A stretch of 64,000 bases of DNA from Streptomyces mangrovi (GTDB lineage Bacteria; Actinomycetota; Actinomycetes; Streptomycetales; Streptomycetaceae). The DNA lies in the NCBI RefSeq assembly GCF_900114215.1, contig NZ_FOSG01000002.1, forward strand, positions 124,001 to 188,000. Reading direction: 5' to 3'. Each line of letters starts with the position of its first letter. Position 1 is the stretch's first letter. A program made the position numbers and the translations under genes. Below the pieces are notes generated by a model. It ran no database searches. It saw only the letters and a program-made list of their open reading frames with translations, and was not told where the DNA came from. This document shows positions 6,979-12,527 of this stretch, piece by piece.

Positions 6979-7617
6979 GTGGCTCAGTTCCGACTCCAAG
7001 GCGGCAAGGTCCTCGCCGTCGACCTGGCAGGCGACACCGTCAGGGCCAAGAACGGCTCGATGGTCGCCTACGACGGCCAGATGGCCTTCAAGAAGCTCAC
7101 CGGCGGCGGCGAGGGCCTGCGCGGCATGGTCACCCGCCGCCTCACCGGCGAGCAGATGGAGATGATGGAGGTGAAAGGGCAGGGCACCTGCTACTTCGCC
7201 GACCGCGCGAGCGACATCGCCCTGGTGGCGCTCCAGGGGCAGAAGCTCCATGTGGAGTCCAGCAACCTGCTGTGCGCCGACGGCTCCCTGCGCACCGGCA
7301 CCACCTTCACCGGGCTGCGCGGCGCCTCCCAGGGCAACGGCCTGTTCACCACCACGGTCGAGGGCACCGGCACGGCCGCGCTGATGTCGGACGGCCCGGC
7401 GGTGGTGCTGCGCGTCACACCGCAGACGCCGCTCCAGGTGGACCCGGGGGCATACGTGGCCCACACCGGAGGCCTGCGGCAGGAGTTCCAGACGGGCGTG
7501 AACTTCCGGACCTTCATGGGCGAGGGGTCGGGCGAGTCCTTCCAGATCCGCTTCGAGGGCGAGGGGCTGGTCTACGTCCAGCCCAGCGAGCGGAACACGA
7601 TCGGCGGTGACGTCTAG
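6979..7617 (+). CDS. AIM24 family protein, first of three
   Basis: A protein of 212 residues with the AIM24/TIGR00266 beta-helical fold: repeated short strands and Gly-rich turns ([20 protein letters not shown]), and the family's closing motif [13 protein letters not shown] followed by [20 protein letters not shown]. The yeast namesake is mitochondrial; the role of the bacterial members is not settled. It has no signal peptide. It opens an operon with two micro-ORFs and two more AIM24 genes. The GTG follows a -10-like TAGATT by 6 nt. Confidence 0.88.
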
Positions 7618-7788
7618 CCGTGAGCGACGCACGTGCGGCCACCGGCCCGCAGACCACCACCGAACCCGCACCCGCCCGCCGCACGGGCGGAGAAGCGAAC
7701 GGAGAAACACCGTGAGCGACGCACGTGCGGCCACCGGCCCGCAGACCACCACCAAACCCGCACCCGCCCGCCGCACGGGCGGAGAAGC
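7618..7788 (+). repeat. Tandem duplication, 79-bp copies at 92-bp period
   Basis: 7618-7696 and 7710-7788 match at 78 of 79 positions (G7662 against A7754). The period of 92 equals one 96-nt micro-ORF minus a 4-nt overlap, so the duplication keeps both ORFs coupled. The copies diverge after GCGGAGAAGC. Confidence 0.9.
7620..7715 (+). CDS. 31-aa micro-ORF, copy 1 (candidate small protein)
   Basis: GTG at 7620 starts two bases after the first AIM24 stop and the frame ends at TGA 7713-7715. The product is hydrophilic: MSDARAATGPQTTTEPAP, then ARRTGGEANGETP. Its TGA overlaps the GTG of copy 2 (GTGA). Its 3' end carries GGAG, which would serve as ribosome site for copy 2. There is no recognised domain. 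Support comes from the tight coupling and the in-frame duplication; there is no direct evidence of expression. It might instead be a spacer whose only job is to pass ribosomes on. Confidence 0.5.
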   Translation: MSDARAATGPQTTTEPAPARRTGGEANGETP

Positions 7789-7807
7789 TCACGAAGGGGG
7801 TGCTTGA
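7712..7807 (+). CDS. 31-aa micro-ORF, copy 2 (candidate small protein)
   Basis: GTG at 7712 overlaps the stop of copy 1. The TGA at 7805-7807 overlaps the ATG of the second AIM24 gene (TGATG). The product differs from copy 1 by one substitution (Glu to Lys) up to residue 26 and then ends HEGGA. Its last codons contain AAGGGGG, the ribosome site of the next gene. The three ORFs are therefore chained by stop/start overlaps. The function is unknown. Confidence 0.5.
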   Translation: MSDARAATGPQTTTKPAPARRTGGEAHEGGA

Positions 7808-8457
7808 TGCCGTTCCGGGAGATCGGTTCCAAGATGGTCGAGGCCCGGGTGGCGCCCGGGCAGCGGATGTTCAGCCAGCGCGGCGCGATGATCGCCTACA
7901 AGGGCGAGGTCTCCTTCACGCCCAGCATCCAGGGCGGCCAGGGCGGCATCGGCTCGATGATCGGGCGGCGGCTGGCCGGCGAGGCGGCTCCGCTGATGAC
8001 GGTCGAGGGTGACGGCACGGTGCTGTTCGGCCACGGCGGCCACCACGTCGAGGTGGTCGAACTGTCCGGCGACACCCTCTACGTGGAGGCCGACCGGTTG
8101 CTCGCGTTCGACGGGACGCTGGAGCAGGGCACGATGTTCATGGGCTCCCAGGGCGGGGTCATGGGCATGGTGCGCGGCCAGGTGACCGGGCAGGGGCTGT
8201 TCACCACGACGCTCTCCGGGCACGGCTCGGTGGCCGTGATGGCCCACGGCGGGGTGATCCGGCTCCCGATCGCTCCGGGCCGCCCCGTCCACGTCGACCC
8301 GCAGGCGTACGTCGCCCACCACGGGGACGTACGGAACAAGCTCTCCACGGCGCTCGGCTGGCGGGACATGATCGGGCGCGGCTCGGGCGAGGCGTTCCAG
8401 CTGGAGCTGTCCGGGCAGGGCGAGGTGTTCGTACAGGCCAGCGAGGAGAAGCTTTGA
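7807..8457 (+). CDS. AIM24 family protein, second of three
   Basis: A protein of 216 residues with the AIM24 fold: KMVEARVAPGQRMFSQRGAM, then TVEGDGTVLFGHGGHHV, with the closing VDPQAYVAHHGDV and GRGSGEAFQLELSGQGEVFV. The ATG overlaps the preceding micro-ORF stop, and a strong AAGGGGG lies 6 nt upstream. Its own stop overlaps the TTG of the third gene. It is clearly paralogous to the flanking AIM24 genes, so the cluster arose by old duplication and divergence. Confidence 0.88.
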   Translation: MPFREIGSKMVEARVAPGQRMFSQRGAMIAYKGEVSFTPSIQGGQGGIGSMIGRRLAGEAAPLMTVEGDGTVLFGHGGHHVEVVELSGDTLYVEADRLLAFDGTLEQGTMFMGSQGGVMGMVRGQVTGQGLFTTTLSGHGSVAVMAHGGVIRLPIAPGRPVHVDPQAYVAHHGDVRNKLSTALGWRDMIGRGSGEAFQLELSGQGEVFVQASEEKL

Positions 8458-10871: not shown

Positions 10872-10913
10872 CCGGCCTCGCCCGGGCTACCCGGCCCGCC
10901 CGGGCGAGGCCGG
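10872..10913. terminator. Terminator overlapping the 3' end of the histidine kinase gene
   Basis: Perfect 16-bp arms (CCGGCCTCGCCCGGGC and its complement) with a 10-nt loop that contains the kinase stop codon. It lies between two convergent genes and can serve both. Confidence 0.7.
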
Positions 10914-12527
10914 GGCCGCGGCGGGCAGCCGCAGGGTGAACAGGGCGCCGCCCTCGGCCGCCCGGCCGGCGGTGAGGCCGCCGCCGTGCCGGGCCGCCAC
11001 GTCGCGGGCGATGGCCAGCCCCAGCCCGGCGCCGCCCTCGTCCCGGCTGCGCGCGTCGTCCAGCCGTACGAACCGTTCGAAGATCCGCTCCCGCTCCTCC
11101 TCCGGCACCCCGGCGCCGTCGTCGGCGACCTCCAGCACGGCCTGCCCGTGTTCACGGGCCACTCGCACCCGGATGCGGGAGGCCGCGTGGCGCCGGGCGT
11201 TGTCCAGGAGGTTGCCGAGCACCCGGGCGAGCTGGCCGCGCGAGCCCGTCACCTCCACCGGTTCCCCGTCCTCCCCGCCACCGCCGTAACCCCCGTCACC
11301 CCCGTCCTCCAGGACGACCGTGATCCGGTCCCCGGTGCGCTGCGCCAGCTCCTCCCGCACCAGCGCGTACAGGTCCACCCGCGCCTCCCCGGGGCGCTCC
11401 CCGGCGTCCAGGCGGGCCAGCAGCAGCAGATCGGCGGCCAGCGCCTGCAGCCGTACGGTGTCGTGGACCGCGCCGTCGATGTCGAGCAGCCCGGGGTGGG
11501 CGGCGGCGACCTCCAGCTGGGTGCGCAGGGAGGCGATCGGACTGCGCAGTTCGTGCGAGGCGTCGGCGACGAAGCGGCGCTGCCGCTCGACGGACGCCTC
11601 CAGGACGCTCAGGGTCTCGTTGGTGGTCCGCGCCAGGCGTGCCACCTCGTCGCGGGAGGGTGGCTCGGGTACGCGCCGGGACAGGTCGGTGCCGGCCGCG
11701 ATGGCCGCCATCTCCCGCCGGATGCCCTCCACCGGGCGCAGCGCGCCCCGGGTGACCAGCCAGGTGACGCCTCCGACGACGGCGAGCAGCGCGGGCAGCC
11801 CGGCGAGCATGGTGCCGGTGACGGTCGAGACGGCCTCCTCCTGCTCGGCGAGGGAGGCGCCGGCGTAGACGGTGACGGGGACGCGGTCGCGGGTGACACT
11901 CTGCACGGCGACCAGGCGGAAGGCCTGCGTCGTCACCGCCCGGGAGCGGTCGTAGGTCACCTCGCCGTCCCCGTCCACGGGCAGGGCGACGGTCCGGGTG
12001 ACGCTGTTGCGGTCCACCGCGACGGGCTCGTCGGACGGCGCCGGGGTGGTGCCGTCGTCGCGGTCGTCGTCGCGGTCATCGTCATCGTCCCGGTCATCGT
12101 CCCGGTCGTCGTCCCGGTCGTCGTCCCGGTCGTCGTCACTGCCGCCGCCGTCCTCCGGGGAGGGCGTGACGGGCGCCTGCCGGGGCTCGTCCGGCCTGTT
12201 GAAGTCGGCCACGGGCCCGCGTCCGCGCAGTGGGTCGCCGGCTCCGAGCACCTCGCCGGAGGCGTCCACGACCTGCACCGGCTCGTCGTCCGCCAGCGCC
12301 TCCACTCCTCCCACCTCGGCCGCCGGCACGTCGGCGACCCCGGCGGCGACCTCACGGGCGGTGGTCTCGGCGTGCAGCCGGGCGTTCTCGGTGAGCCCCC
12401 CGCGGAGCACCTCGACCACCGCGATCCCGGCCACCACCAGGGCGACCGCCACCACGAGCGTGGCGCCGAGCGCGGCGCGCACCCGGACGGTGAGCCGGGC
12501 GAGCGGGGAGAGCACGGGCCTACGCAC
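10887..12527 (-). CDS. Sensor histidine kinase with extracytoplasmic RDDD repeats
   Basis: A protein of 546 residues. Membrane segment 1 is at about 19-41; the extracytoplasmic domain at 42-238 contains an almost pure Asp/Arg tract at 130-158 (repeats of RDDD); membrane segment 2 is at about 239-259; then HAMP, the phospho-acceptor helix with His325 (ADASHELRSPIASL), and the ATP domain (NLLDNARRHA, DDGAGVPEEE, GGAGLGLAIA). The GTG start overlaps the response regulator stop by 8 nt. The PepSY-like secreted protein divergent from this operon has the same repeats, so the two may share a ligand such as a metal ion. Confidence 0.92.
   Translation of the reverse strand: MRRPVLSPLARLTVRVRAALGATLVVAVALVVAGIAVVEVLRGGLTENARLHAETTAREVAAGVADVPAAEVGGVEALADDEPVQVVDASGEVLGAGDPLRGRGPVADFNRPDEPRQAPVTPSPEDGGGSDDDRDDDRDDDRDDDRDDDDDRDDDRDDGTTPAPSDEPVAVDRNSVTRTVALPVDGDGEVTYDRSRAVTTQAFRLVAVQSVTRDRVPVTVYAGASLAEQEEAVSTVTGTMLAGLPALLAVVGGVTWLVTRGALRPVEGIRREMAAIAAGTDLSRRVPEPPSRDEVARLARTTNETLSVLEASVERQRRFVADASHELRSPIASLRTQLEVAAAHPGLLDIDGAVHDTVRLQALAADLLLLARLDAGERPGEARVDLYALVREELAQRTGDRITVVLEDGGDGGYGGGGEDGEPVEVTGSRGQLARVLGNLLDNARRHAASRIRVRVAREHGQAVLEVADDGAGVPEEERERIFERFVRLDDARSRDEGGAGLGLAIARDVAARHGGGLTAGRAAEGGALFTLRLPAAAPASPGRAG

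Follow-up and report, generated by a model that had tools for sequence, protein, structure and literature searches.

The window analysed here, a stretch of 64,000 nucleotides from Streptomyces mangrovi (RefSeq assembly GCF_900114215.1, contig NZ_FOSG01000002.1, positions 124,001 to 188,000 of the forward strand), carries two tandem copies of a 92-bp unit between two genes of the AIM24 family. An earlier note, made from the letters alone, had taken the copies for micro-genes of the AIM24 operon that encode small proteins; the unit is instead a dispersed, evidently mobile repeat, and its AIM24 site is empty in close relatives. Very probably both units are copies of one short, mobile Streptomycetaceae repeat, a counterpart of the mycobacterial interspersed repetitive units (MIRUs), whose open reading frame (ORF) and ribosome site preserve the translational coupling of the genes that it separates. 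The tiny ORF probably serves to carry ribosomes across the insertion instead of making a working protein. The repeat is dispersed, prefers one kind of site, preserves its reading frame, covaries in a terminal stem, is missing from orthologous sites and differs in copy number between relatives.

A DNA search of the whole source genome placed more copies on other contigs, and R1, a model built on the sequence of the 81-nt core alone, found 12 copies there at E ≤ 0.01, the two weakest of them degenerate. At least one R1 match was present in 46 of 121 genomes of the genus (E ≤ 1e-6; up to 16 copies) and a match in 47 of 150 genomes of the family, from 9 of 17 genera (E ≤ 1e-5); these larger searches were strictly filtered, and the numbers of copies and genomes are lower bounds. 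We take the sampled family to be the Streptomycetaceae because the named loci of the repeat are from Streptomyces. In a class-wide sample of 296 genomes R1 matched 12, every one a member of the same genus as the source genome, and had no match in the 268 that lie outside that genus and the family (the 296 minus 28 of the same genus, in listings ordered by decreasing kinship, in which no further family member appears). Strong PPE matches mark 16 genomes of a single genus in this sample as probable mycobacteria. Outside the family, a structure-aware model (R2) gave a single match (genome G350, locus L203, E 1.4e-4), which was weak, fell at the start of an apparent protein-coding gene that we take to be CoA-transferase-like, and was judged to be chance. 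An exact 30-base pattern retrieved 77 contig stretches, 76 from Streptomyces and one from Streptantibioticus. Since the same unit recurs across the genome and the family, a chance origin is excluded. The plasmid and phage collections are considered below.

The sites occupied by the repeat lie within operons, core operons such as argC-argJ, nadB-nadC and purQ-purL among them. The best NCBIfam matches of ten flanking protein fragments were nadB, nadC, gatA, nitrite/sulfite reductase, hisB, nuoE, cysD, argJ, purQ and purL, several of them below the whole-protein cut-off because fragments alone were compared; by eye on the translations we assign further flanking genes to argC, nuoB, nuoD, cysC and response regulator-kinase pairs. 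For an analysis of frames, 155 copies were formed into 128 array rows, leaving out copies near the ends of loci or with identical flanks and splitting three long arrays (L010, L123 and L130) into two rows each. In 118 of the 128 rows a frame open for at least 50 codons upstream ends, near the start of the repeat, at a stop that overlaps a start (117 of the -4 type and one of the -1 type). In the source genome, purQ and purL flanks of the repeat (L003, L005) stand at contig ends, at the start of C31 and the end of C42, where a tandem array probably broke the assembly.

Comparison of the AIM24 site in five close genomes gives two copies in the window, two in S. verrucosisporus, one in S. barkulensis and none in S. 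radiopugnans or Streptomyces sp. CNQ085. The empty junctions read GTC-TGATG in S. radiopugnans and ATC-TGATG in CNQ085, between flanks 96-98% identical to the window, and in most empty relatives the ATG of gene 2 directly overlaps the TGA of gene 1. The single-copy site of S. barkulensis reads GTC-TGA-CC-GTGAGC...GGTGCT-TGATG; set against the empty GTC-TGATG, it shows TGA repeated on both sides of the insertion. In S. verrucosisporus, as in S. barkulensis, gene 1 ends in TGA where the window has TAG. A survey of AIM24 junctions in 14 genomes showed S. verrucosisporus to have two copies, S. barkulensis a single copy and the junction to be empty in five (L212, L213, L217, L218 and L221); six loci were left unread (L214, L215, L216, L219, L220 and L222, the match coordinates of L214-L216 fitting one copy) and genome G572 had no AIM24 match. 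The single-copy version that the earlier note had proposed to look for thus exists, in S. barkulensis and also in Streptomyces sp. Root1304, S. termitum and S. griseoluteus, where the insertion takes another form, lacking the CC and with a different right end, and may have arisen independently at this junction.

Thirty argC-argJ loci were chosen as the best matches to the joined flanks and are hence empty by choice; 28 of them were readable, and all 28 have an NTGA overlap at the junction (26 CC-GTGA and two CC-ATGA). At the hisB site, between flanks 95-99% identical, S. cellulosae has one copy, S. werraensis two and S. albogriseolus one. Arrays reach nine copies in S. niphimycinicus and S. 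morookaense; the nine-copy arrays at L123 (1477-2266) and L130 (1216-2032) have periods of 89 and 92 and closely similar copies, and are candidates for rapid change in copy number.

Within the window, repeat copy 1 occupies 7620-7711 (plus strand, as are all features of this locus), from GTGAGC to just before the next GTGAGC, and copy 2 occupies 7712-7804, a core of 7712-7792 plus a tail that runs up to the stop codon. R2 recovers them at 7620-7700 (79.0 bits, E 8e-17) and 7712-7792 (80.3 bits, E 4e-17), both copies being among those from which the model was built, and elsewhere in the window R2 gave nothing better than E 0.03. The earlier description of the duplication holds: each copy is one complete ORF of 31 codons, GTG to TGA, at 7620-7715 and 7712-7807, and the copy spacing of 92 equals the ORF length of 96 minus the 4-nt GTGA in which the first stop overlaps the second start. 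The second stop (7805-7807) overlaps the ATG of AIM24 gene 2 (7807-7809) as TGATG, so that the chaining onto that gene is likewise as described; a TTG at 7804-7806 is an alternative start for gene 2 and would give TTGA. Ribosome-site-like sequences lie in the 3' end of each preceding ORF, GGAG at 7701-7704, 7 nt ahead of the second GTG, and GAAGGGGG at 7793-7800, 6 nt ahead of the ATG of gene 2. The two copies are 95% identical across 87 nt. Their peptides do differ at residue 15 (Glu or Lys), as had been observed, and they differ as well in the last five residues (NGETP vs HEGGA), which had been passed over.

This chaining is a general property of the repeat. The frame of the repeat stays open in 119 of the 128 array rows up to a stop that overlaps the start of a downstream same-strand ORF of at least 40 codons (116 as NTGA, three as TGATG); in 114 the upstream stop overlaps a GTG or ATG start in frame as NTGA; and in 108 both ends overlap. 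Loci found by the model and by the pattern are similar in downstream coupling (51 of 55 and 68 of 73). Within the core, frame 0 is interrupted by a stop in none of 95 copies, frame 1 in 24 and frame 2 in two. One of the tetramers GGAG, GAGG, AGGA or AAGG precedes the downstream start by 5-15 nt in 103 of the 119 coupled rows, vs 361 of 2380 control windows taken from within the downstream genes, and the same tetramers precede the repeat's own start in 90 of the 119. The ORFs of the coupled rows take 16 different lengths between 81 and 144 nt (27 to 48 codons), and nested inserts that shift the GTGA by 27, 33 or 39 nt upstream leave it in frame at the six loci checked (L008, L048, L067, L068, L070 and L072).

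Of the nine uncoupled rows, three (L010, L123, L130) are artefacts of the removal of duplicate rows, the last copy of the L010 array in fact being coupled through a 135-nt frame that ends in TTGA. Three more (L051, L096, L118) are in-frame fusions of the repeat ORF to the next ORF, for which the repeat may now provide the start codon and N-terminus; the gene upstream at L051 and L118 presumably encodes a beta-ketoacyl synthase.

The repeat also has an imperfect terminal stem of 15 pairs, a terminal inverted repeat of the kind expected of a miniature inverted-repeat transposable element (MITE) of an insertion sequence (IS). Among 98 distinct copies the stem is paired in 98.9% of cells, with both sides changed at seven of the 15 pairs; none of 500 shuffles, which ignore the relatedness of the copies, reached these values, and controls in which the stem was slid along fell far lower. 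A2 was built from 78 of the loci, at E ≤ 1e-8. For loci L079-L155, which were found through an exact 5' pattern that contains TGA, conservation of the 5' arm carries no evidential weight. Mapped by position from the 98 copies, the arms (model positions 5-20 and 59-77) fall at 7624-7639 and 7678-7696 in copy 1 and at 7716-7731 and 7770-7788 in copy 2. Single-sequence folding of the two window copies did not surpass that of shuffled sequences (z -0.97 and 0.16), and it is because these scores are unremarkable that the claim of a structure is drawn solely from covariation. Two local hairpins (16-20/27-31 and 58-61/67-70) were considered as an alternative structure and rejected, as they show no covariation. 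Departures from pairing on the sense strand comprise 34 G-T and 5 A-C cells (P 2.4e-6 if the cells were independent, which those of related copies are not); this excess indicates that the strand that pairs is probably sense RNA or sense single-stranded DNA. An Rfam search of 7500-7900 returned a single match, at 12 bits against a gathering threshold of 35.

In the mechanism that we propose, the repeat lands on a stop/start overlap (GTGA, ATGA or TGATG) of co-directional operon genes and forms a new overlap at either end of itself; its 5' end usually supplies a GTGA that at once stops the upstream gene and starts the short ORF. That ORF crosses the repeat without a stop, with a ribosome site in the tail, and ends on the start codon of the downstream gene. 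Ribosomes finishing the upstream gene would then start afresh on the short ORF and once more on the downstream gene, a chain by which the insertion would become nearly neutral for translation of the operon, and selection for coupling would keep the frame open. Tandem copies would arise by duplication of whole units, in which the chain would usually be kept because each unit is bounded by an overlap. For this reason the earlier note's argument from the improbability of a random duplication that preserves the coupling is weak: with an overlap on both sides of the unit, unit-wise duplication keeps coupling automatically. S. verrucosisporus also speaks against that argument, as its site (95% identity over 599 bases) has a period of 93 and its two ORFs are fused in frame into one of 62 codons. 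Movement of the repeat would presumably be the work of an enzyme acting in trans.

Were the ORFs functional small proteins of the AIM24 operon, retained for their amino-acid sequence, the ORF should bear the mark of selection on the peptide. It is open in nearly all copies, its frame is kept in the coupled rows counted above and the peptides are alike (VSDARAATGP...RRxGGEAN), all of which favours such a role. We nevertheless hold it to be very improbable. The same peptide is found between unrelated genes, it has no Pfam match, the length of the ORF varies and the AIM24 junction is empty in close relatives. Furthermore, the comparison of codon positions, run as a test of peptide selection, came out against the protein: differences at codon positions one, two and three are 0.14/0.14/0.16 in the argC-argJ repeat ORF, vs 0.04/0.05/0.23 in argJ and 0.10/0.08/0.25 in argC; 0.08/0.09/0.10 in the hisB-site ORF, vs 0.02/0.01/0.25 in hisB; and 0.12/0.21/0.20 in the gatA-site ORF, vs 0.07/0.07/0.29 in gatA. 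A third-position excess is absent from the repeat ORF at argC-argJ, hisB, nuoD-nuoE, nuoB-nuoC and cysC-cysD, and at gatA there is none beyond position two; most flanking genes show it (argC, argJ, hisB, gatA and the nuo genes), and the small genes that follow gatA and hisB have it weakly (0.20/0.13/0.23 and 0.27/0.11/0.31). All 55 ORFs of 93 nt, pooled, give 0.16/0.22/0.19. The counts were made on equal-length pairs at 1-35% divergence, pairs that are not independent and were compared without a tree; the contrast with the upstream genes is large. These comparisons do not support selection of the repeat peptide as a peptide, or the small-protein interpretation. At the other extreme, an ordinary local tandem duplication of chance intergenic sequence in one strain would account for the near identity of the two window copies; dispersal refutes it, the unit being present at many unlinked operons and in many species, and we give it practically no weight.

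Two further alternatives start from the stem. The repeat could be a post-transcriptional regulatory element, whose sense-strand stem sets mRNA processing or the ratio of the proteins while the ORF keeps the element passable to ribosomes; the compensatory changes in the stem and the sense-strand wobble bias are in its favour, as is a case in Mycobacterium tuberculosis in which, according to extracts of one report, a longer tandem repeat region upstream of fpg1 accompanied higher fpg1 mRNA (PMC2734929). We regard this as somewhat unlikely: presence is sporadic even among close species, so that no operon seems to depend on the repeat, upkeep of the stem at a single site is weak, folding of the window copies is unremarkable, and the same wobble bias would be expected if a single-stranded DNA hairpin of that strand were recognized for mobility. 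Such recognition is the core of another proposal, that the repeat is a passenger like the repetitive extragenic palindromic (REP) sequences or the IS200/IS605 elements, a single-stranded hairpin moved by a Y1 transposase of the REP-associated tyrosine transposase (RAYT) type that recognizes the stop/start tetranucleotide. An imperfect terminal hairpin with strand asymmetry, a fixed short target, the lack of any gene inside and the presence of two Y1 transposase genes in the source genome are all as this proposal would have it. It is nonetheless unlikely, since neither Y1 gene adjoins a copy (no significant match within flanks of about 1.5 kb; best E 0.22) and the apparent duplication of TGA at the AIM24 junction is atypical of IS200/IS605.

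Several observations weigh against the reading that we prefer, that of a mobile repeat whose ORF bridges coupled genes. No autonomous element or mobilising enzyme was found, the distance between the Y1 genes and any copy counts here as well, and a blastn search of plasmid and phage collections returned no match to the repeat. Coupling has its exceptions: at the AIM24 site of the window the first GTG does not overlap the stop of gene 1 (TAG at 7615-7617, giving TAG-CC-GTG); in the argC-argJ copy of the source genome (L007) the GTGA lies 17 nt upstream, out of the frame of the repeat ORF; and of the remaining uncoupled rows, the frame is lost in L048, and L049 and L135 do not sit at a clean overlap. 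The array rows are not independent, 18 of the 108 rows counted being from argC-argJ, 13 from hisB and 12 from gatA, and the frame could have been preserved partly through the spread of in-frame master copies. As to the stem, it was proposed from an overlapping set of copies, which favours it over the slid controls. Divergence of stem and loop is equal in 12 argC-argJ copies (0.090 and 0.099), where one double change and 16 one-sided changes that keep the pair stand beside nine broken pairs, six of these in three copies whose alignment is displaced by a nested insert. Support for upkeep of the stem once the repeat has inserted is thus weak, at one site and from ORFs of 93 nt only (P 0.011 by shuffling). 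A longer version of the repeat did not appear among the 77 pattern-found stretches, in which the match extends past model position 60 in 76 and to position 54 in L153, a comparison that did not include a dedicated search for a parent IS.

In extracts of a 2025 review, MIRUs are described as repeats, apparently mobile, whose insertion takes place at start codons and whose internal ORF is coupled at a -4 nt spacing (PMC12548453), and extracts of two other papers give units of 40-100 bp at 41 sites, with variable copy number and proposed roles that include differential translation within operons (PMC12065434, PMC2734929). The Streptomyces repeat resembles them in size and placement, with a core of 81 nt in a unit of about 92 nt interspersed at many chromosomal sites, and likewise in its co-directional operon genes, its -4 overlaps, the stop/start overlap left in empty relatives and its variable copy number. 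By the same extracts, the tandem copy number of MIRUs differs between strains, as that of the Streptomyces repeat does, and two-component operons are among MIRU sites, to judge from the title of Supply et al. 1997 (cited in PMC12548453). The two differ in that ours belongs to another bacterial family; its covarying terminal stem may also set it apart. In the 268 outside genomes, the 16 probable mycobacteria included, R1 had no match and R2 one weak match attributed to chance, actual MIRU sequences not having entered the comparison. A DTGA insertion model for MIRUs was reportedly put forward by Supply et al. in 1997. The best reading is that the Streptomyces repeat works like a MIRU; homology to MIRU sequence is not claimed.

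Other small repeats offer partial parallels. REP sequences with their RAYTs, and MITEs, are short, intergenic, palindromic or bounded by terminal inverted repeats, multicopy and without a transposase inside. The Streptomyces repeat is likewise short and intergenic, has terminal inverted repeats, occurs in many copies and lacks an internal transposase; it differs in that it targets a coding overlap and brings along both an ORF and a ribosome site, and in that neither a RAYT nor a parent IS turned up beside it. The betaproteobacterial repeat element (BRE), of about 90 bp and mostly intergenic, is named together with ERIC, RUP, BOX and NEMIS in extracts of one paper (PMC3110155); all are small dispersed repeats, and the bridging of genes by an in-frame ORF is not among the features that those extracts describe. 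A survey of the Streptomyces literature, judged from titles and the openings of abstracts and with subscription papers mostly outside its scope, turned up no account of this repeat.

These results explain a class of apparent micro-genes in Streptomyces operons, for which annotation as proteins is unwarranted without evidence. They suggest that a second actinobacterial family uses the MIRU strategy, in which a coupling ORF and a ribosome site make mobility harmless, and that the strategy extends to core operons. Close Streptomyces species offer natural alleles that are filled, empty or multi-copy, and these make testable both the effect of the bridge on the ratio of the coupled proteins and the nature of the enzyme that moves the repeat; the variable copy number could also serve in strain typing. 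More tentatively, it is possible that the Streptomycetaceae have their own family of translation-transparent mobile repeats, separate in origin from MIRUs, which would be directed to stop/start overlaps through a sense-strand hairpin and would afterwards retune the ratio of the coupled proteins, such that core-metabolism operons of close strains differ in their number of bridges.

All three genes neighbouring the repeat in the window belong to the AIM24 family (PF01987; E 5.2e-38, 2.3e-38 and 4.3e-11). Gene 1 (6979-7617, plus strand) encodes 212 aa and ends in a TAG two bases before the repeat; gene 2 (7807-8457, plus strand) encodes 216 aa. Some copies of the repeat (L008/L047, L067, L068, L070, L072 and L014) contain, in their 5' or 3' part, another and shorter palindromic insert, of type GGGGGCACCTCCC...GGGGGAG; when at the 5' end, it displaces the GTGA by 27 or 33 nt without loss of frame. 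An exact pattern for this insert matched once in the source genome. At argC-argJ the 3' arm of the copies L076 and L099 contains a different in-frame insert, of about 24 nt, which encodes approximately SDISRYRG; L049 has a similar sequence. Elsewhere in the window, a 546-aa ORF on the minus strand (10887-12527), which we take to be sensor-kinase-like, has a long Asp-Arg repeat (DDDRDDDRDDD) in its N-terminal half.
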